A DNA stretch of 64,000 bases from Thiomicrorhabdus aquaedulcis (GTDB taxonomy: Bacteria > Pseudomonadota > Gammaproteobacteria > Thiomicrospirales > Thiomicrospiraceae): the NCBI RefSeq assembly GCF_004001325.1, contig NZ_AP018722.1, positions 1,240,001 through 1,304,000 on the forward strand. The letters run 5' to 3'. This document shows, one piece after another, positions 3,883 to 63,996 of the stretch; position 1 is the first letter of the stretch; each line of letters begins with the position of its first letter. A program made the position numbers and the translations under genes. The notes under the pieces were generated by a model. That model was given only the letters and a program-made list of their open reading frames with translations. It was not told the origin of the DNA and did no database searches.

Positions 3883-4401
3883 TTACACGCTAAGCTTTTT
3901 TAAAACGGCTTGACGCGCCAATCCATCGGCTAAGGTGTTGCCCGGGTTGCCGTTATGACTTTTGACCCAGCACCAATGCACATTGTGATGCAGACTAAGA
4001 GATTCAACACTTTCCCACAAGGTTTTAAACACCACCTCTCGTCCAGACTTATTTAACCAGGCCTGGTCACGCCAACGCGCTATTTTTTTGGTTAAGCCTT
4101 CCATTAAAATACGTGAGTCGGTGTAGAGCGTAATGCGAGTGGCTTGACCCTTTAAAGATGTGAGTAGGGCGGTTAGCTCTGGTGTTTGCAGTGCCAACAG
4201 CGCTTGCTGTGCGGCCAGCAGCTCCATCTCTAAACTTGAGTGACTGGTTTTAGCGTGCGCAGCGCGTAAGATTTCTTGTTGATTTACAAACATCACCCAA
4301 CCCCAGCCACCGAGCTGATGCTGGCGAAAATAGCCGCCGTCGGTGTAAATTTCAATGACAAGCGGGGTACTTGCAAAAGGCGATTTACTCAACGATTGCA
4401 C
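3883..4401 (-). CDS. rnhA: Ribonuclease HI
   Basis: Cleaves the RNA strand of RNA:DNA hybrids. The 172-residue protein carries the RNase H fold with the expected DEDD metal ligands: D21 in IYTDGG, E60 in LEMELLAA, D95 in LYTDSR and D159 in NTLADGLA, plus the flexible-loop His (H149, KSHNGNPGN). Translation appears to start at GTG (4399-4401), nine bases after the stop of the membrane-protein gene upstream on the same strand, suggesting co-transcription. It ends 23 bases from the convergent response-regulator gene. A perfect ACCAGGCCTGGT lies inside it and is read as DQAWL. Confidence 0.9.
   Translation of the reverse strand: MQSLSKSPFASTPLVIEIYTDGGYFRQHQLGGWGWVMFVNQQEILRAAHAKTSHSSLEMELLAAQQALLALQTPELTALLTSLKGQATRITLYTDSRILMEGLTKKIARWRDQAWLNKSGREVVFKTLWESVESLSLHHNVHWCWVKSHNGNPGNTLADGLARQAVLKKLSV
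4056..4067. repeat. ACCAGGCCTGGT palindrome, coding copy in rnhA
   Basis: Perfect 12-bp palindrome. On the minus strand it is read in frame as D-Q-A-W-L in the variable middle of RNase HI. Confidence 0.85.
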
Positions 4402-11375: not shown

Positions 11376-11387
11376 ACCAGGCCTGGT
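11376..11387. repeat. ACCAGGCCTGGT palindrome between rnfA and rnfB
   Basis: Perfect 12-mer in the context TGACCAGGCCTGGTCA. It ends two bases upstream of the rnfB ATG and so overlaps the ribosome-binding region. Confidence 0.85.
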
Positions 11388-14377: not shown

Positions 14378-14389
14378 ACCAGGCCTGGT
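14378..14389. repeat. ACCAGGCCTGGT palindrome upstream of the STAS gene
   Basis: Perfect 12-mer in context TTTGACCAGGCCTGGTGAAA. It sits in the divergent metG/STAS gap, about 20 bases upstream of a TATAAT -10 element. Confidence 0.85.
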
Positions 14390-16090: not shown

Positions 16091-17944
16091 ATGTTCAATC
16101 GTCAACCCATTGCTCAATTACCGTCGCATTTAGCCGACCAAATTGCCGCCGGCGAAGTGGTCGAACGCCCGGCTTCGGTGGTAAAAGAGTTACTTGAAAA
16201 TGCTTTAGACTCTGGCGCTACGCTTATAGAGATTCACATTGAAGAAGGTGGCGAAAAGCGTATTCAAGTGACCGATAATGGCAGCGGCATTCCTAAAAAT
16301 GAGTTGCTGCTGGCAGTAAGTCGTCACGCTACTAGCAAAATACAAACAGCCGCCGATTTAGCTTGCGTGACTACGCTTGGGTTTAGAGGTGAGGCCTTGG
16401 CGAGTATAAGCTCGGTTTCACGATTTGAAATTACCAGCCGAGCCCATAACGATGTGGCGGCATGGCAATTGCAAAGCGAAGGTGATGCACAATGGAGCGC
16501 GCTAAAACCAGCCGCCTGCCCAGAAGGTACCCGCGTAAATGTGAGCGACTTGTTTTTTAACACGCCGGCGCGAAAAAAATTTTTACGCTCTTCTAAAACA
16601 GAGTTTTTACAAATAGAACAACTGGTTAAACGAGTAATGTTAAGTCGTTTTGAGGTTGGCTTTAAACTCTGGCATAATCACAAGCTGTTGCGCCAGGTGA
16701 CTCCCGCGTTGGACAATAAAGCCATTAATCAGCGCCTATCCATCTTACTAAGTGATGCATTTGTCGAACAAAGTGTAGAGATTTTGTTTGAATCTCAAGA
16801 GTTAGTCGTCAAAGGCTGGGTTGGATTGCCAACCTTTAATCGCAGCCAAACCGATATGCAATATTTATTTGTAAATGGTCGCATGGTGCGCGATCGTTTA
16901 CTGTCTTACGCTGTAAAACAGGCGTATGCCGATGTGATGTATCACGGTCGTCATCCAGCGTATTTATTATTTTTAGAACTGCCAAGCGATTGGGTGGATG
17001 TTAATGTTCACCCCGCCAAGTACGAAGTTCGTTTTGCCAATGGTCGCTGGCTATACGATTTTTTACGCCGCAGTGTGCGTGACGCGGTAGCCAAGCCATT
17101 AATGGCACAACACGGCAGTGGTACGGCACTTGAGGCAAGTGGACAAACCTCCCAATCTGGTTATGTAAATCAAAATACGCCCTTATACAATCAAAATCGC
17201 AGTCTAGACATAGTTGCAGCACAGCAGTTTCAGCAACCGCTTGGCGGTATGTTTAATGCGCCAAATTATGCGAATTATTCGCACTCACCAGGCCTGGTCA
17301 CATTACATGAGCCCAATGCAACGTATACCACTTATAATAATACCCCGTCTAGCGATGTAACGCCGCGCTTGGGGTTTGCTAAAGCACAAATACATGGTGT
17401 GTACATCTTAGCCCAAAATACACAGGGCTTAATATTGGTGGATATGCATGCCGCACACGAACGCATTGTGTATGAACGCATGAAAAAGCAATGGAACAAT
17501 GAACGCATTATCAGTCAACCGTTATTAGTGCCTATTGCTATGGGTGTAGAATCTCTAGCGGTGGATGTATGGCATGAGCAGCGCGATTTATTTACCCAGC
17601 TGGGTTTTGAAATCGAGCCTTTGGGGCCACAGCAACTAAAAATTATGGCTGTGCCTGCAATGCTGGTTAAAAGTAATGTGGTAGGATTAATAAACGATAT
17701 GTTGGCCGACTTAGCTGTGACCGGGCAAACTCAGCGCAGCGAAGAGCGCATTAATGCAATTTTATCGACCATGGCTTGTCATGGTTCAGTGCGTGCAAAT
17801 CGCACATTAAGCTTGCTCGAAATGGACGCATTGCTAAGAGAAATGGAAGTAACTGAGCGTTCGGATCAGTGCAATCATGGTAGGCCTACTTGGGTAGAGC
17901 TTTCGATGGGACAATTAGACAGCCTTTTTATGCGAGGCCAGTAA
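16091..17944 (+). CDS. mutL: DNA mismatch repair protein MutL (endonuclease type)
   Basis: 617 residues. The GHKL ATPase domain shows E-N-ALDSGA, DNGSGI and GFRGEALASI. A variable linker (about 335-430) is followed by the dimerisation domain. That domain has DMHAAHERIVYE, matching the DQHA(X)2E(X)4E endonuclease motif with Met for Gln, as well as ACHGSVR and CNHGRP. These suggest a nicking MutL, as in MutH-lacking gammaproteobacteria, unlike E. coli MutL. A perfect palindrome copy falls in the linker (SPGLVT). It starts the mutL-miaA-hfq run. Confidence 0.95.
   Translation: MFNRQPIAQLPSHLADQIAAGEVVERPASVVKELLENALDSGATLIEIHIEEGGEKRIQVTDNGSGIPKNELLLAVSRHATSKIQTAADLACVTTLGFRGEALASISSVSRFEITSRAHNDVAAWQLQSEGDAQWSALKPAACPEGTRVNVSDLFFNTPARKKFLRSSKTEFLQIEQLVKRVMLSRFEVGFKLWHNHKLLRQVTPALDNKAINQRLSILLSDAFVEQSVEILFESQELVVKGWVGLPTFNRSQTDMQYLFVNGRMVRDRLLSYAVKQAYADVMYHGRHPAYLLFLELPSDWVDVNVHPAKYEVRFANGRWLYDFLRRSVRDAVAKPLMAQHGSGTALEASGQTSQSGYVNQNTPLYNQNRSLDIVAAQQFQQPLGGMFNAPNYANYSHSPGLVTLHEPNATYTTYNNTPSSDVTPRLGFAKAQIHGVYILAQNTQGLILVDMHAAHERIVYERMKKQWNNERIISQPLLVPIAMGVESLAVDVWHEQRDLFTQLGFEIEPLGPQQLKIMAVPAMLVKSNVVGLINDMLADLAVTGQTQRSEERINAILSTMACHGSVRANRTLSLLEMDALLREMEVTERSDQCNHGRPTWVELSMGQLDSLFMRGQ
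17287..17298. repeat. ACCAGGCCTGGT palindrome, coding copy in the mutL linker
   Basis: Perfect 12-mer read as S-P-G-L-V-T in the unconserved linker between the MutL ATPase and dimerisation domains. Confidence 0.85.
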
Positions 17945-19209: not shown

Positions 19210-19366
19210 GAGACCTTTGCACGAGTGGGGTACGAGAAAAAAATGCGAAAAAACTTACCTGATTGAGTGGGAAACTTGTGAATAGTTGGCTATTCACAAG
19301 TTTGCCAACGAAAAGCAGGAAAAATTTAACCATTTTTGGCCGTACATCCACTCGTGCAAAGGTCTC
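19210..19366. mobile_element. Foldback MITE copy A, upstream of hfq
   Basis: A 157-bp element with inverted ends GAGACCTTTGCACGAGTG and CACTCGTGCAAAGGTCTC. The arms pair imperfectly along their whole length, and the centre is a GTGAATAG/CTATTCAC hairpin. It is flanked by AATAT on both sides (19205-19209 and 19367-19371), a likely 5-bp target duplication. It has no coding capacity and ends 53 bases before the hfq ATG. Confidence 0.85.
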
Positions 19367-27036: not shown

Positions 27037-27048
27037 ACCAGGCCTGGT
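27037..27048. repeat. ACCAGGCCTGGT palindrome in the divergent cheY-like/ppiD gap
   Basis: Perfect 12-mer, 81 bases upstream of the CheY-like ATG and 129 bases upstream of ppiD. Confidence 0.85.
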
Positions 27049-29960: not shown

Positions 29961-31139
29961 TTACGGTGCGTTTTGGGCAGTTAAATCAAGGTTAACTTCG
30001 GCAAGAGTATGAAAACGTTGCTCAATAATTCCGCCTCCTAAGCAGTCATCGGCTTGGTAAAATACCACCGATTGTCCTGGCGCTATGGCTGTTTGCGGTT
30101 GATCAAACTGCACTACAATTTTGTCATTTTGGGCATATATAATTTGACAAGGTTGCTCTTCTTGACGATAACGTATTTTAGCTTTAAGTGGCGTGTTGAG
30201 TGCTGGGCAGTGACCAGCCACCCAATCTAACGTATCGGCAGTCAGCACCGCATGTTGCAGCAGTGGATGCTGTTTGCCTTGTACGGCAATTAATCTATTA
30301 AGCGCTAAATCTTTGTCGGCTGCAAACCAAGGTGCATTGTCTTCACCGTGACCACCGCCTACGCCTAGGCCTTTTCGTTGGCCCAGAGTGTGATACATTA
30401 AACCTTCATGGCGACCAATAATGTGTCCTTTGTCGTCGACAATGTCCCCCGGTTGTGCGGGCAGAAAGCGTTGTAAAAAGTCTTTAAATTTACGCTCTCC
30501 AATAAAACAGATGCCTGTACTGTCTTTTTTATTGTGTGTGACCAGGCCTGCTTGTTCTGCTAAGTGTCTTACCATTGGTTTTTCTAGTTCACCAATAGGA
30601 AAAAGCGTTTTTTGCAATTGCGCTTGCTGTAAGGTGTACAAAAAATAACTTTGGTCTTTATTGGCGTCTAAACCTTTAAGTAAATGAAACTTTCCATTAG
30701 CGTCTGTGCTGATGCGTGCGTAATGCCCCGTGGCAATGTAGTCCGCTCCCAAAGTCATTGCGTGCTGTAAAAAGGCTTTAAACTTAACTTCTTTATTGCA
30801 CAAAATATCTGGATTGGGTGTTCTTCCTACTTGATATTCTTGCAAAAAGTGGGCAAATACATTGTCCCAATATTCGCCCGAGAAATTCTCGATGTGCACC
30901 GGAATGTCCAACTTTTCGGCAATGGCTAAGACGTCTTTTAAATCTTCGGCCGCCGGACAAAAGTCTTCGGTGTCGTCGCCTTCCCAGTTTTTCATAAACA
31001 AGCCTTCGACTTGATAGCCTTGCTCTTTAAGCAACCATGCGGTCACCGACGAGTCAACACCGCCCGATAAGCCCACAATGACTTTGATACGCTGATTGAT
31101 TGGGTTAAATAAAAAAGGAGATTGAATGGAATCGCTCAT
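29961..31139 (-). CDS. mnmA: tRNA-specific 2-thiouridylase MnmA
   Basis: Makes s2U34 in tRNA Lys/Glu/Gln. 392 residues with the PP-loop [10 protein letters not shown] (about 22-31). Catalytic cysteines lie in [12 protein letters not shown] and [23 protein letters not shown] and the C-terminal beta-barrel are present. A partial palindrome at 30541 is read as QAGLV. The N-terminus has about 15 extra residues before the usual family start. Confidence 0.95.
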
Positions 31140-31230
31140 AAGCTTAGGGTTCGCGTTTTAATTAATTTTTAAGACCCACATTTTAACAGAGCCTGGCGTT
31201 GGCAAACAGTTGATTAACACTGGTCTGTAA

Positions 31231-31302
31231 AGCAAAATATGGTGTGTAATGTTAAGCAAAATATGGTGTGTAATGTTAAGCAAAATATGGTGTGTAATGT
31301 TA
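31231..31302. repeat. Three identical 24-bp tandem repeats at the end of rluE
   Basis: Unit AGCAAAATATGGTGTGTAATGTTA at 31231-31254, 31255-31278 and 31279-31302, with a partial fourth unit (AGCAA) after it. The last three bases of unit 3 are the complement of the rluE stop codon. The units are identical, implying recent expansion. Confidence 0.9.
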
Positions 31303-31857
31303 AGCAATAGAGCGTAATACGCTTTGACCTGGTTGTAAGCCCTCTAGACTCCAATCGCCAATTTTTAGACGAATTAAACGTAACGTTGCGCATCCTACTG
31401 CGGCCGTCATACGTCGGACTTGGCGATTTTTACCCTCGGTAATAGTGAGTTCTAACCACGTGGTAGGAATCAATTTACGCTCTCGAACGGGCGGGTTTCG
31501 CGGCCATAGCCAGTCGGGTTGAGGTACTACTTTGGCTTTGGCGGGGCGAGTTAGACCGTCTTTGAGTAGCACACCGGCTTGAAGCTGTTTAAGCGCCGCT
31601 GAATTTAGAATGCCTTCGACCTGAACCAAATAGGTTTTAGAGAGTTTATTGGCCGGGTTAGCAATCTGATGCTGTAATTGGCCGTCGTCGGTCAGCAGTA
31701 AAAGGCCTTCCGAATCGCGGTCTAAACGTCCTGCGGCGTAAAAATTGGGGAGTTGAATGTAGTCGGCTAAGGTTTGACGTTGGCCTGCAAACTCAGGCTC
31801 ATCGGTAAATTGGCATAAAACATTAAACGGTTTGTTAAATAAAAGAACAGAACTCAT
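31300..31857 (-). CDS. rluE: 23S rRNA pseudouridine synthase, RluE type
   Basis: RsuA/RluE family enzyme of about 185 residues without an S4 domain. Catalytic Asp lies in [18 protein letters not shown], and [14 protein letters not shown] is the C-terminal family motif. E. coli RluE modifies U2457; the assignment rests on the short length and start [17 protein letters not shown] at 31857 is chosen over GTG at 31872. The stop codon lies in a 24-bp tandem array. Confidence 0.85.
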
Positions 31858-32025: not shown

Positions 32026-34278
<2,253 letters not shown>

Positions 34279-34314
34279 CCCAAAGCGTTTAAAATAAGTT
34301 GTTAATAACAAAAG

Positions 34315-34347
34315 CCCTTTGACCAGGCCTGGTCAAAGGGATTTTTT
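34315..34347 (+). terminator. Intrinsic terminator after icd, built from the ACCAGGCCTGGT palindrome
   Basis: A 26-bp perfect palindrome (34315-34340) made of CCCTTTG, the core palindrome at 34322-34333 and CAAAGGG, followed by a T run (34342-34347). This is both a repeat copy and a strong rho-independent terminator. Confidence 0.85.
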
Positions 34348-34374
34348 ATCAAGGCATACAAAAACAAACATTAA

Positions 34375-34533
34375 GAGACCTTTGCACGAGTGAGGTGCGA
34401 GGAAAAAATGAGATAAAATTTGCCTGATTGAGGCGGAAAACGCAGTGAATAGCTGGCTATTCGCAAGGTTTTCAACAAAAATCAGGCAAATTTTAGCCAT
34501 TTTTTCCTCGCACCTCACTCGTGCAAAGGTCTC
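34375..34533. mobile_element. Foldback MITE copy B, between icd and ycjX
   Basis: A 159-bp element and the most symmetrical copy: its arms pair over most of their length around a GTGAATAG/CTATTCGC centre. Ends are GAGACCTTTGCACGAGTG and its complement. Both flanks are ATTAA (34370-34374 and 34534-34538), a clean 5-bp target duplication. It ends 17 bases before the ycjX ATG. Confidence 0.88.
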
Positions 34534-34550: not shown

Positions 34551-35936
34551 ATGACCTCTATTTTTTCACGAGCCAGTCATGCGTTGGAGTCGTTAGTACA
34601 TAAAGGTTCAGAGCAACTCGAACAATGGGTTAGCCAAGAGGTGCATAAAATTGCCATAACCGGCTTAAGTCGCAGTGGTAAATCAATGCTTTTTACCAGC
34701 CTTATGGGTGCCTTGCAGTATCGAGCCGATCATCTTTACGACAGTTTGCCATTGTTAAAAAGCTTGCCGGTGGAGCTGATTGATAAAATGGAATTGCTGC
34801 CTATTATGGGTCACACGCCGTTTCCGTTAACAACACACTTAGATGCATTAGACGCACAGCAATGGCCGCGTGCCACCGATGAAGTGTACGGTTTTCAACT
34901 GGTTATTTGGCTTAAGCAAACCCACTTTATAAAAAAACAGCTAATGCCGCATAAAAAAGTGGTGTTTGAGTTTTATGACTACCCCGGCGAATGGCTTACT
35001 GATTTGCCCATGCTAAATAAAACCTTTACCCAATGGTCCGATTCGGCATGGGCTCAACAAATGAGCGCTCCCCAAAAGTTTTACGCCAACGACTGGCATG
35101 CTTTTGCGGATGATTTTAATTTTGATTCTACCCCCGATAACGCAACGGTAGCACGCTGGGTAAATGAGTATCGTGGCTATTTACAAACCGCTAAAGCCGG
35201 TGGCATTTCGCTGTTGCAACCGGGTAGCTTACTGTTGCCTAGTACGCAATTTGATTGGGGCACTTATGGGTTTGCGCCACTGCCCACCAACATCAGCAGC
35301 GACCCGCAACATCCGTGGACGCGATTGTTTAGTGCGCATTACAACCTGTTTAACCAGGCCTGGTTAAAACCTCTTAAAGAAACCACGTTTAAAACCACCG
35401 ACAAACAAATTATCTTAATTGACCTGTTTGAAGGCTTAAACCACAGCAAGCAGCATGTTTTGCAACTTAAAGAAGCTATTAGCAATTTAGCCGCTACCTT
35501 TGTATACGGCTCAAATCACTGGTTACGCCAAAAAGTGTTGCGTAAAACGCGGGTGGCCAAAGTGGCGTTTGTAGCCACTAAAATTGATTTAATACCGTTG
35601 TCTCAGCAAGCCAATTTAATGGCGTTATTGCACGAAGTCACTGCTGGCGCGCGCGCGCAATTTAAGGCCGATGAAGTTGATTTTGAGCATTTTCTGGTGT
35701 CGGCCATGCAAACCACCGACCCCGGAAAAACCCCCGAGAGTTTGCGTTACACGAATCAATATGACGACTACATTGAAGCGCAGTTTGAACCGCTTCCCAG
35801 CGGGCTAAAACAGATGCTTGAACATGAAAATTACCCGTACTTACCGGTTAAAGTTCCAAAAGACTATTTGGCTCGCATGCTTAACGCACAAGGTTTAGAC
35901 CGCTTGTTTGAATACATAATTAAGGATAAATCATGA
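34551..35936 (+). CDS. ycjX: YcjX family P-loop protein (DUF463)
   Basis: 461-residue GTPase-like protein. Walker A GLSRSGKSMLF (about 38-48) and KVAFVATKIDLIP (G4-like NKxD variant TKID) are visible, as is FYDYPGEWL. The function is unknown in most bacteria; in E. coli it is induced with the phage-shock/sigma-32 regulon. AAGGAGC precedes the ATG, immediately after MITE copy B. It overlaps ycjF by four bases. A palindrome copy is read as NQAWLK. Confidence 0.9.
   Translation: MTSIFSRASHALESLVHKGSEQLEQWVSQEVHKIAITGLSRSGKSMLFTSLMGALQYRADHLYDSLPLLKSLPVELIDKMELLPIMGHTPFPLTTHLDALDAQQWPRATDEVYGFQLVIWLKQTHFIKKQLMPHKKVVFEFYDYPGEWLTDLPMLNKTFTQWSDSAWAQQMSAPQKFYANDWHAFADDFNFDSTPDNATVARWVNEYRGYLQTAKAGGISLLQPGSLLLPSTQFDWGTYGFAPLPTNISSDPQHPWTRLFSAHYNLFNQAWLKPLKETTFKTTDKQIILIDLFEGLNHSKQHVLQLKEAISNLAATFVYGSNHWLRQKVLRKTRVAKVAFVATKIDLIPLSQQANLMALLHEVTAGARAQFKADEVDFEHFLVSAMQTTDPGKTPESLRYTNQYDDYIEAQFEPLPSGLKQMLEHENYPYLPVKVPKDYLARMLNAQGLDRLFEYIIKDKS
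35353..35364. repeat. ACCAGGCCTGGT palindrome, coding copy in ycjX
   Basis: Perfect 12-mer with the extended form TTAACCAGGCCTGGTTAA, read in frame as F-N-Q-A-W-L-K. Confidence 0.85.
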
Positions 35937-36850: not shown

Positions 36851-37188
36851 ATGGTTAACGCGTGAACTTAAAGCTTAAAGTTTAAATTACCGCACTGTTT
36901 AACGTAGTTTAGATGAGTTAACCCATTGTATTACCAGGCCTGGTTAAAGCATTAAACCTACTTAGAGCCTCTCTAAAACCTCTTTATTCACTACAAATTG
37001 ATAAAGGCAATGGCAATTTGTTCAAATTTAGGCCGTCAACTCAGAATCAAATAACTTGGCTAAGTCGTTCTTAATTCAACTTGGCGTTAACAGCGGTGCT
37101 CTTTAAGATCAGTCTATTAAGATTTGCTTATCAATTTTATCCTGGCACTGTACAATCGCCGCTTCTTTAGTCTAAAAGGCGGTTCTCT
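36851..37188. other. Intergenic region ycjF-yaeQ
   Basis: 338 bases without a gene. It holds the perfect palindrome at 36933-36944; no tRNA, element copy or clear terminator was seen. Confidence 0.6.
36933..36944. repeat. ACCAGGCCTGGT palindrome between ycjF and yaeQ
   Basis: Perfect 12-mer in context ATTACCAGGCCTGGTTAA, 83 bases downstream of ycjF and without a T run, so it is not an obvious terminator. Confidence 0.85.
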
Positions 37189-37738: not shown

Positions 37739-37750
37739 ACCAGGCCTGGT
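37739..37750. repeat. ACCAGGCCTGGT palindrome between yaeQ and the Sel1 gene
   Basis: Perfect 12-mer in TTGACCAGGCCTGGTGTG, 11 bases after yaeQ and 14 bases before a lone foldback-element end. Confidence 0.85.
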
Positions 37751-39248: not shown

Positions 39249-39387
39249 TATAACAACCCATAACAAACCCATAACAACCCATAACAAACCCATAACAACC
39301 CATAACAAACCCATAACAAACCCATAACAAACCCATAACAAACCCATAACAAACCCATAACAAACCCATAACAAACCCATAACAACC
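39249..39387. repeat. 10/11-bp tandem array (CATAACAAACC)
   Basis: Thirteen units: the first five alternate between CATAACAACC (10 bp; the first begins TATAAC) and CATAACAAACC (11 bp), then seven identical 11-bp units and a last 10-bp unit. It begins 19 bases after the Sel1 stop. Unit length matches one DNA helical turn. Confidence 0.92.
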
Positions 39388-39445: not shown

Positions 39446-39550
39446 TGCTCAATGCTTGATGCTCAATGCTTGATGCTCAATGCTTGATGCTCAATGCTTG
39501 ATGCTCAATGCTTGATGCTTGATGCTTGATGCTTGATGCTTGATGCTTGA
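39446..39550. repeat. 7-bp tandem array (TGCTYRA)
   Basis: Fifteen heptamers. The first ten alternate TGCTCAA and TGCTTGA (a 14-bp super-unit, five times), the last five are all TGCTTGA. A degraded palindrome half (ACCAGGCCCTG, 39437-39447) lies at its left edge. Confidence 0.92.
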
Positions 39551-39714
39551 TGCTTATTAAGTTTTGTTTAAAAACAGCCACTATTCTTTTTAATCTTATT
39601 TTGAACGATTAAGGCATTTGCCTACGCTGGGTAAAATTAGACCGTTGCAATGCGTAATGAATTTATCAAACCCGCAATTGTGTCAAATTCAGCCTAAACG
39701 TAAGGATGTCAACC

Positions 39715-41986: not shown

Positions 41987-41998
41987 ACCAGGCCTGGT
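41987..41998. repeat. ACCAGGCCTGGT palindrome between J-domain gene and clpS
   Basis: Perfect 12-mer in TGTGACCAGGCCTGGTTAG, 14 bases after the J-domain gene stop. Confidence 0.85.
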
Positions 41999-45260: not shown

Positions 45261-45419
45261 GAGACCTTTGCACGAGTGGGGTGCGAGAAAAAAATGAGGA
45301 AACATTTACCTGATTGAGGCGGGAAACGCAGTGAATAGCTGGCTATTCACAAGTTTTCCAACGAAAAGCAGGAAAGTTTTAACCATTTTTGGCCGTATAT
45401 CCACACGTGCAAAGGTCTC
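45261..45419. mobile_element. Foldback MITE copy C, between aat and infA
   Basis: A 159-bp element with left end GAGACCTTTGCACGAGTG and right end ACACGTGCAAAGGTCTC (one change). The centre GTGAATAG/CTATTCAC matches copy A. Flanking TTTA on each side suggests a 4-bp duplication. It is 148 bases upstream of infA and 39 bases past the aat stop. Confidence 0.85.
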
Positions 45420-54359: not shown

Positions 54360-56293
54360 ATGGCTCTTGAACAACAAATGCAGTTTTTAGCACAAATTTC
54401 GCCCTTTGATGTTTTAGATTCAGCACAATTAAAATTGGCCGCCGAAAGCTTAGACGTCGTTTATTTTGTAACAGGACACACCTTAAAACTACAAGACCCT
54501 AAGACATCTGACCAGGCCTGGTTGTATTTCGTTATTAAAGGCATTGTGGCTGAAAACGTAGGCGATTTGCTTATAGCACGCTACAGCGTAGGCGGTTTTA
54601 TTGGCGCGCGTCAATTGTTGTTAGAAGCAACACAACCTCAAAATACCGTTCATCAAAGTCAAATTAACCACGCTGTTTCTACGATTGATGCACAGTATTG
54701 TATTGTGGAAGAGGCTATTTTGTATCGTATGCCTGGCGCTGTTTTTGTAACACTTATGCAGCAAAATACTCAATTTAACAGTCATTTTAACGCCAGTTTA
54801 GTTGATAAACTTAATGCTTTGCACAATCAATTACAAGCTCAACAATCCACAGAAGTAATGATGGAAACAGTGTGCTCTGCCCCAATGCAACCCCTGGTAA
54901 GCGTGGCCGCAACCAGCAGTTTGCTCAGTGCTGTACAAGCTATGGTTGCGGCCAATACCGACGCGTGCATGATCGAGTTTGCATTAGATTCTTTAGAAAT
55001 TGATGCGTCAGAAAAATGGGGCATTATCACCGCCACCGAAGTGCTAAAAAGTTTGGCGAGTGGAGATAATCCGCAACTTATAAAGGTAGGAGAGCTTGCT
55101 AATAAGCCCGTGTACACGGTACATCAGTTTGATTATTTGTTTAATGCCTTGCTTAAAATGACGCGTCATCAAATTAATCGGTTGGTTGTACGCAGCGACA
55201 GCGGTTGGTTGGGGTTTTTGCATCAAAAAGAACTGATGAGTTTATTTGCCAATCAATCTGGATTGGCATTGTTAAAAATTGACCAGGCCTGCTCGATTGA
55301 GGATTTAAAACAAGTTACTCTGCAAATGGATCAGCTTATAGCCAGCTTAAATCGTAAAGGCATTAAAATGCACTACATTGCTAAACTGGTAGGTGAATTG
55401 CATCGCAAGTTGTTTTATAAACTTACCGAGTGGTTTTTACCACAAGAATTGCATTCAAAAGTGTGTTTGTTGGTTATGGGCAGTGAAGGGCGATTTGAGC
55501 AACTTATTCGCACCGATCAGGATAATGCACTTTTATTGCAAAACGACTTGTTAGACCAAGAGCGTGCGCAAGTTGATAAGTTTGCTGTGGTGTTTAATGG
55601 TGCATTAATAGAGTTGGGGTTTCCAAATTGCTCGGGCAATATTATGGTAACCAATGAGCAATGGCGGCAGCCGATAGGAACGTTTATTGCCCAGATTGAC
55701 CAATGGTTTGATCAGCCCAATACCAATAGCTTTATAAACATGGCCATTTTTTTTGATGCTCAACCCATTATGGGTGACGAGAGCTTGTTGGATAAAGCCA
55801 AGCAACGTTTAAGACTGCGCATGCAACAACAGCCAATGTTGTTAAAGCACTTTGCTAAGAGTGCCTTGCAATTTGAAACTCCGGTGAGTTTTTTTGGTGG
55901 ATTAATTACCCAAAAAAACAGTGGGGTCGAACGTATGGACATTAAAAAAGGCGGTATTTTTCCCATTGTGCATGGCATACGTTGCTATGCGTTAAAGTCA
56001 GGTATTTACGCGACTAACACCCATTGGCGCATAAAAGCCCTAATGGACAAAGGCGTTTTAGATCCCTCTTTTGGAGTTGAACTAGGCGAAAGTCTTAACT
56101 TTTTAATACACTGCGTCTTGAATCACAACTGAATCAATTGGCGCACGGAATACACTCTAGTCAAGTAGATAATTGCATCGAACTGCAGGCTTTGTCGCAC
56201 TTGCAGCAAGATTTGCTAAAACAAGCATTGGGTGTAGTCACCCAATTTAAAAAAATCCTGACACGACAATTTAGCATACAGGATATTTTATAA
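54360..56293 (+). CDS. cNMP-binding/CBS/DUF294 nucleotidyltransferase, frameshifted
   Basis: About 644 residues when repaired. An N-terminal cyclic-nucleotide-binding-like domain (1-150) is followed by a CBS pair (about 175-305), then a GlnD-like nucleotidyltransferase domain (GSEGRFEQLIRTDQDNALL, about 375) and a DUF294 C-terminal domain. Such genes are commonly linked to acs/actP and a DnaQ-like exonuclease. The frame breaks at 56105: ESLNFL should continue NTLRLESQLNQLAHG to a TAA at 56291-56293 that overlaps the next ATG. One A is missing. A perfect palindrome (54511, DQAWL) and a partial one (55282, DQACS) lie inside. Confidence 0.87.
54511..54522. repeat. ACCAGGCCTGGT palindrome, coding copy in the DUF294 gene
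   Basis: Perfect 12-mer read in frame as S-D-Q-A-W-L-Y in the cyclic-nucleotide-binding-like domain. Confidence 0.85.
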
Positions 56294-61695: not shown

Positions 61696-61707
61696 ACCAG
61701 GCCTGGT
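61696..61707. repeat. ACCAGGCCTGGT palindrome between infB and rbfA
   Basis: Perfect 12-mer in the extended form ATTGACCAGGCCTGGTTAAT, 61 bases after infB and 58 bases before a terminator-like hairpin. Confidence 0.85.
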
Positions 61708-63139: not shown

Positions 63140-63996
63140 GCGAGCAAAAAATGCGCTTTGAACAAGCCGACGGCATTTTAGATTTACGCGATGAGATTGC
63201 CTACCAAACTGCACATCTTCTGGGCGCGACTTGGTTAAGTTGGGACGATTTACCCGAAAGTTTAGCCATGTTGCCCGCGGCACCTGCACAATTTTTTTTA
63301 GTGGGTTCTAAAGCACAAATAGACGCCGCAAGTATTTTTTTAGACTTAAAAGAATATCAAGTTACCGGTTCATTAGTGGTTGAGTTAGACCAATCAATGG
63401 CATTATGGGACGCGCAATTACCAGGCCTGGTGGTTTCTGGAAACGATTCAAAAGTCTTGTGGTCACCCAACGAGCTTGTGGTTAGATGGTTGAGCAAATT
63501 AGAGTTTGATCCTAAAGCCTTAAAACCCAGACCACTGGCACTCGATTTGGGCTGCGGTGCTGGGCGTGACGCCGTTTTTTTAGCACAAAAGGGTTTTGTC
63601 GTCGACGCTATTGACAGTGAGGCACGCACCTTAAAACGAGCCAAGCAATTGGCTGCACGCAGTCGTACGCAAGTGCGCTTTAAATGTTGCGATTTAAAAA
63701 ATACCGAGTGCTTCCCCGACCAAATGTACGATGTGATTTTAATGGTGCGCTATTTAAATAGAGATTTATTTGACGCCATCAAACAACACGTTAAACCCGG
63801 CGGTTATGTGTTAATTCATACCTTTAGTGAAGGCGTTGAAGAGTTTAAATCTCCCAAAAATCCTAACTTTATTTTGCAACACGGTGAATTACGTCAAATT
63901 TTTGCTGGTTTTACCATCTTGGTAGATAATACAACTTATCTAAACGATGGCCGTCCCATGAATGCGTTTATTGCGCAAAAGCCACTTATTGAATAA
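63136..63996 (+). CDS. Rhodanese-like/class I methyltransferase fusion protein
   Basis: 286 residues. The N-terminal part (about 10-100, ILDLRDEIAYQTAHLLGATWLSWDDL) looks like a rhodanese domain, but the usual active-site Cys loop reads FFLVGSKAQ, so it is probably inactive. The C-terminal part is a SAM-dependent methyltransferase (LALDLGCGAGRDAVFLAQKG, AIDSE; TehB-like). The substrate is unknown. It is coupled to truB by a four-base overlap. A perfect palindrome is read as LPGLVV. Confidence 0.78.
   Translation: MSEQKMRFEQADGILDLRDEIAYQTAHLLGATWLSWDDLPESLAMLPAAPAQFFLVGSKAQIDAASIFLDLKEYQVTGSLVVELDQSMALWDAQLPGLVVSGNDSKVLWSPNELVVRWLSKLEFDPKALKPRPLALDLGCGAGRDAVFLAQKGFVVDAIDSEARTLKRAKQLAARSRTQVRFKCCDLKNTECFPDQMYDVILMVRYLNRDLFDAIKQHVKPGGYVLIHTFSEGVEEFKSPKNPNFILQHGELRQIFAGFTILVDNTTYLNDGRPMNAFIAQKPLIE
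63420..63431. repeat. ACCAGGCCTGGT palindrome, coding copy in the methyltransferase gene
   Basis: Perfect 12-mer read as L-P-G-L-V-V between the rhodanese-like and methyltransferase domains. Confidence 0.85.

Follow-up and report, generated by a model that had tools for sequence, protein, structure and literature searches.

The described systems closest to the repeat reported here are the USS of the Pasteurellaceae, the DUS of the Neisseriaceae and the HIP1 palindromes of the cyanobacteria. In the USS, as described in PMC1626085, the core is followed by A's and then T's (segment 2), with a second AT block further out (segment 3) that in the Hin type is centred 12 positions from segment 2, and the copies are reported there as arising by substitution. 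Both DUS and USS reportedly act as transcription terminators, in the form of inverted pairs (PMC3630211; PMC12616744). For HIP1, the published account indicates that a HIP1-like cause calls for a cognate methylase in the genomes that are rich in the palindrome (PMC4390886). The available portion of a motif-discovery survey (PMC5217627) makes no mention of Thiomicrospira. Moreover, literature searches for natural transformation, competence or uptake sequences in Thiomicrospira, Hydrogenovibrio and Thiomicrorhabdus gave nothing on topic by title, and neither did a text match to the letters AGGCCTGG among the matches listed. No uptake signal or motif of this kind in the Thiomicrospiraceae was found among the listed literature matches (titles and abstract starts; most subscription journals lay outside the scope).

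The window, i.e., the whole 64,000-nucleotide stretch of Thiomicrorhabdus aquaedulcis DNA that was analysed, contains on its plus strand a 747-aa ORF (icd, 32035-34278) that matches the Pfam IDH family (PF03971, monomeric isocitrate dehydrogenase) with 1281.5 bits. Beginning 37 nt beyond the icd stop codon (counted from its final base), the sequence CCCTTTGACCAGGCCTGGTCAAAGGG at 34315-34340 is a perfect 26-bp palindrome, the centre of which is the 12-mer ACCAGGCCTGGT (34322-34333). On its 3′ side, one A is followed by TTTTTT at 34342-34347, on the same strand as icd. The preliminary description, which had reported a perfect palindrome centred on the 12-mer and followed by a T run, was accurate here. 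The RNA of positions 34310-34350 has a predicted folding energy of -19.1 kcal/mol, compared with a shuffle mean of -8.5 (z -4.16; 0/200 shuffles equally stable), and the predicted hairpin has an 11-pair stem with a GGCC loop. Positions 34315-34347 show the standard anatomy of an intrinsic terminator, that is, a G+C-containing stem-loop and a T run after a gene, and the icd transcripts would be expected to end there.

Other repeats are found in the neighbourhood. A MITE-like element with inverted ends GAGACCTTTGCAC lies directly behind the icd terminator (34375-34533) and is found again at 19210-19366 and 45261-45419; pairs of these ends, 153-156 bp apart, occur 10 times in the window plus a 400-kb sample, and the end sequence is also present in the loci of G011, G012 and G019. 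Two adjoining tandem arrays, one of the 11-bp unit ATAACAAACCC (x 12.6) and one of the 14-bp unit TGCTCAATGCTTGA (x 7.9), were located at 39250-39385 and 39446-39555, respectively. A 24-bp unit is repeated 3.4 times (98%) between two minus-strand ORFs at 31226-31307.

The 12-mer is found at 718 places in the genome (2,537,035 bases, two contigs), each palindrome being counted once, while the reversed pattern is found at none. In 400 kb of sampled stretches, 114 copies were counted where an order-3 Markov model predicts 0.04. Counts of ACCAGGCCTG in the window and the samples cover both strands, and each full palindrome counts twice in them. The window itself holds 14 copies of the 12-mer and 25 of its 8-bp core, CAGGCCTG. 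Besides the copy in the icd terminator, the pattern count combined with gene calls placed intergenic copies at 11376-11387, 14378-14389, 27037-27048, 36933-36944, 41987-41998 and 61696-61707. Copies scored as coding are those at 1014-1025, 4056-4067, 54511-54522 and 63420-63431, along with one at 17287-17298 in an ORF that is mutL-like by eye (16091-17944), one at 35353-35364 in a ycjX-like gene, and one at 37739-37750 that sits at an ORF start and is uncertain. Cores outside full 12-mers were found within icd (32623-32630), at 30543-30550, and at nine further places starting at 2734, 2846, 5208, 18840, 45902, 45922, 48025, 55284 and 56305.

Extending the placement to 464 kb (sample plus window) gave 128 copies, 60 intergenic and 68 coding, which corresponds to densities of 0.945 per kb of intergenic and 0.170 per kb of coding DNA. 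The density is highest between convergent genes (2.4 per kb), with 0.99 for divergent and 0.78 for tandem pairs. Coding copies favour two of the three reading frames (33, 26 and 9 copies). These coding/intergenic assignments, like the flank, terminator and origin counts given below, rest on gene calls made by a simple script and not by a standard gene finder. The spacing of the copies (CV 0.89) is not clearly more even than random. On contig 2 the motif is roughly 5-fold rarer, with 5 copies in 96.8 kb versus 114 in 400 kb of contig 1. Contig 2 (97 kb; L129, L262-L265) also contains 15 copies of another repeat, GCTCGTATTCC.

Single-mismatch versions of the 12-mer in the 464 kb indicate which of its positions are kept: 6 carry the change at one of the four inner half-site positions, versus 44 at one of the two outer ones. 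The inner positions are thus rarely changed and the outer ones often, which makes CAGGCCTG the core of the motif here. The flanks of the 12-mer start on both sides with a preference for a pyrimidine, followed by a strong A and an A/T stretch; in the own genome, a further AT-rich block lies 15-18 bases from the centre, with a weaker one at 25-28. When only coding sites were considered (n = 64), the first AT block had a z of 7.6 and the second of 4.2 against random coding places, and the gaps between the blocks were at background. The succession of A's and then T's right after the core is seen in the own genus, including the G006 dialect described below, and in the related group g3, and is weak in group g6. 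We also compared coding core sites with the best relative. A usable relative was available for 46 of the 130 sites (84 had none), and the alignment around the site was ungapped for 38 of these 46 and gapped for 8; most testable coding copies therefore arose by substitution.

Several intergenic copies resemble the one behind icd. The preliminary description had held that the other intergenic copies lack T runs, and within the window this is correct under the strict test (a perfect arm of at least 9 bp and a T-rich tail); a looser test, however, flags the copy at 14378-14389, which has a weak terminator-like context with an imperfect stem. Across the 464 kb, 8 of the 60 intergenic copies are terminator-like and 52 fail the strict test. 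When the 12-mer was implanted at random intergenic places, 300 such draws gave 0.31 terminator-like copies on average and never more than 2. Arms of at least 11 bp, with or without a tail, were found at 6/60 (null mean 0.16). The icd copy is thus one of several terminator-like copies, since eight pass in the wider sampling.

The icd loci of relatives were also scanned. A homologue search with icd kept 80 relatives at 63-68% identity, and nearer relatives are possibly missing from this set. Motif-centred icd terminators are present in 6 of 30 genus genomes, the own genome included: four were found by a strict scan 3′ of icd (G000, G001 with a one-base variant, G003 and G021) and two by eye, with stem mismatches (G007 and G014). 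A core is found no more than 200 nt downstream of icd in 8 of the 30 loci and in none of the 13 loci from genomes nearly devoid of the motif; in G006, G011 and G029 it is present at this distance and no terminator was found by the scan. The remaining loci have hairpins that do not contain the motif, or none, according to this crude scan, which can miss terminators. The stems differ among relatives and, therefore, the recruitment is repeated or keeps changing. The earlier proposal that the repeat can be recruited as a transcript end is supported, at the level of sequence, by the eight terminator-like copies and by the motif-centred icd terminators with differing stems. A single copy would suffice for a terminator here because the signal is itself palindromic. 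The putative terminator function is a side role of the motif.

The degenerate motif MCMGGCCKGK is abundant, with over 100 sites per genome (our definition of a bearing genome), in 35 of the 62 genomes of the family, and an order-wide pattern search covered the same 62 genomes. The bearing genomes comprise 18/32 in the own genus, 7/11 in g3, which is very probably Hydrogenovibrio, 9/9 in g6, which we take to be Thiomicrospira, 1/1 in g7, and 0/9 in g2, g4 and g5 together. In the other 14 of the 32 genus genomes the motif is almost totally absent (bare genomes). Of the 940 MCMGGCCKGK sites in the own genome, 718 are the full palindrome.

The spelling of the motif varies between genomes. In short samples, ACCAGGCCTGGT is the version found in most genomes, and G003, G026 and G027 have mixed AACAGGCCTGTT- or AGCAGGCCTG-like versions. 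G006 uses the dialect ACCGGCCGGT, found 22 times in 45 kb versus 0.06 expected, and the G002 dialect, AACAGGCCGGGT, is asymmetric. Further variation is seen at the outer bases in g3 and g6 (again in short samples), and GGCC is common to all of the dialects sampled. An icd tree was built for 30 of the 32 genus genomes, and on it motif presence changes at least three times, with G013, G016 and G021 counted as bearing from their degenerate-motif counts. The AACA versions group with G002 and G016 with weak support (64), the CCA version occurs in three places, G006 lies among bare genomes, and the branch of the own genome is long and loosely placed. The fit of the dialects to the phylogeny is suggestive only. 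In the motif-poor genome G038 (L246 and L271), a repeat with CAGACCTAGCC occurs 28 times in two 20-kb samples and is perhaps a CRISPR array.

Of the competence genes, which the preliminary description had singled out as worth looking for, ComEC and PilT-family ATPases were searched for and detected among the 32 genus genomes. ComEC scored over the cut-off in 28 of them (16/18 bearing, 12/14 bare), and the two bearing genomes without a match, G015 and G016, are both fragmented drafts. For pilT_fam, the corresponding figures are 29/32, with 16/18 bearing and 13/14 bare. As the bare relatives mostly keep ComEC and pilT_fam, the machinery does not predict the motif. The bare and nearly complete genomes G004 and G030 each have a single pilT_fam gene, scoring ~415 bits, and no copy that scores close to 500 bits; G030 is also without a ComEC match. 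A link between the motif and the competence machinery cannot be drawn from so little. The ComEC of the own genome is full length. Four core sites lie in its gene (L296:8159-10798), of which three belong to full 12-mers, and the coding density predicts ~0.9; this is an observation on one gene only.

The pilus genes that were inspected are similar to an MSHA-type cluster, with assembly ATPase and secretin matches below the family cut-offs. A search of the 32 genus genomes for PF12019 (GspH/FimT-type) gave weak matches in three, all of them bare, and no motif-tracking pilin; the two GspH/FimT-type matches inspected lie in type II secretion clusters. A PF07963 pilin search in six genomes (three bearing and three bare) found large pilins in all and no gene that tracks the motif. 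At L235:6177-14567, very large pilin-like proteins (293-495 aa) that share LPCPD are encoded near a small major-pilin-like gene, and relatives have related pilin-like groups with a different gene content. This group is a possible place of a DNA receptor.

The sequences show the abundance, core, flanks, dialects and mostly substitutional origin of the motif, the presence of ComEC and PilT, and the terminator anatomy behind icd. Most of the traits by which sequence can reveal an uptake signal are found in this motif. We consider it fairly probable that a recognition signal of the DNA-uptake-sequence type, spread over the genome and specific to the family, has the 12-mer at its centre. Beyond these observations, we infer a receptor, an uptake bias and transcription termination. 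The receptor would sit on the cell surface, probably as a pilin of the PilT-retracted pilus, and would bind free DNA at the core (GGCC in all dialects, CAGGCCTG in this genome) and at the flanking A-then-T tracts. The cell would preferentially import DNA of kin, which would pass through ComEC and then recombine. Recurring over time, such biased uptake would maintain the motif at a high frequency and allow the dialects to diverge. An intergenic palindromic copy would already form a hairpin and, where G+C and T-run flanks evolve, might become an intrinsic terminator, as after icd. The preliminary description had asked whether the motif is itself an uptake or recognition signal; the occurrence in 35 of 62 genomes, the dialects, the USS-like flanks, the mostly substitutional origin, the lower frequency on contig 2 and the occurrence in genomes that gave no match to three DNA-methylase families sharpen this question and favour a positive answer. 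The failure to find a motif-tracking pilin in the searches above points the other way. So do the palindromic form, which DUS and USS do not have, the weaker flanks in g6, a spacing not clearly more even than random, the retention of ComEC and pilT_fam by most bare relatives, the weak support for the AACA grouping, and literature searches that gave nothing on topic for natural transformation in these genera.

The strongest rival to the uptake reading is a site for a dimeric protein that acts chromosome-wide inside the cell, such as a nucleoid, segregation, recombination or replication factor. The two-fold symmetry of the motif (718 of 940 sites being full palindromes), the tight core and the smaller number of copies on contig 2 would all agree with such a site. 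However, one would not expect of an essential factor that its recognition positions differ between dialects within one genus, or that its site is almost totally absent from 14 of the 32 genomes of that genus, and the G002 dialect AACAGGCCGGGT is not symmetric; we regard this explanation as unlikely, yet the one to be taken most seriously. Less probable still is that the motif is an iterated palindrome like HIP1, owing its origin or persistence not to uptake but to an orphan DNA methyltransferase with linked repair. The motif fits Elhai's description of HIPs in being GC-rich, palindromic and iterated and in having alternate versions in relatives, and a GGCC methylase of Anabaena is named in the same paper (PMC4390886), but the description, in the parts available, contains no AT flanks like those found here. 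In addition, 7 of the 18 bearing genus genomes (G001, G003, G005, G006, G026, G028 and G029) have no match to PF00145, PF02086 or PF01555, the three methylase families searched, and these include G006 with 1096 sites and G029 with 735. A methylase cause was rejected as a general rule on account of these seven genomes.

A third explanation would make the motif a family of terminators, or REP-like elements spread by insertion, with no need for uptake. The higher density in intergenic DNA (0.945 versus 0.170 per kb), the peak of 2.4 per kb between convergent pairs and the excess of terminator-like copies over the null would fit this explanation, but 68 of the 128 sampled copies are scored as coding, 52 of the 60 intergenic copies fail the strict terminator test, and 38 of the 46 coding core sites compared show no gap. 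A terminator family as the prime cause was rejected on account of the coding copies, and an insertion element, REP or other mobile repeat on account of these copies and the ungapped sites; we consider this explanation very improbable.

Returning to the uptake signal, a fuller proposal, to which we give about equal chances of being right or wrong, is that the motif would be a third, independently evolved and first palindromic uptake signal. It would pair two USS-like half-sites head to head, both with their own core and AT segments, would be readable on either strand, and would exist in at least four dialects that label species for recombination; single copies of it would have become terminators. 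Its carriers would be sulfur oxidisers, presumably Thiomicrorhabdus, Hydrogenovibrio, Thiomicrospira and their kin. If true, a third family, of free-living chemolithoautotrophs and with a palindromic signal, would offer an independent test of how uptake signals originate, change their spelling and isolate species. It would also provide a new system for receptor discovery, and a route to a terminator from one uptake-signal copy instead of an inverted pair.

Compared with the known systems, the motif shares with the USS of the Pasteurellaceae a short core, hundreds or thousands of copies and A-then-T flanking segments (PMC1626085), as well as an origin by substitution, versions specific to subclades and use in terminators (PMC1626085; PMC12616744). 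The USS, however, is asymmetric with AT segments on one side, whereas here the core is palindromic, AT tracts are found on both sides at a closer spacing, and uptake is putative. With the DUS of the Neisseriaceae it has in common dialects within a family, a shared inner core and an association with terminators (PMC3630211). Unlike this motif, the DUS is non-palindromic and has a known receptor, ComP, and its link with terminators takes the form of an inverted pair of two copies, whereas one copy would serve here. HIP1 and the alternate HIPs of cyanobacteria resemble the motif as iterated palindromes with alternate versions in relatives (PMC4390886), but HIPs go with specific methyltransferases, while 7 of the 18 bearing genus genomes here lack a match to the three families searched. 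Finally, the icd site is like a Rho-independent terminator in its 11-pair stem, GGCC loop and T run, and differs from one in that the centre of its stem is a genome-wide motif rather than a gene-specific sequence.
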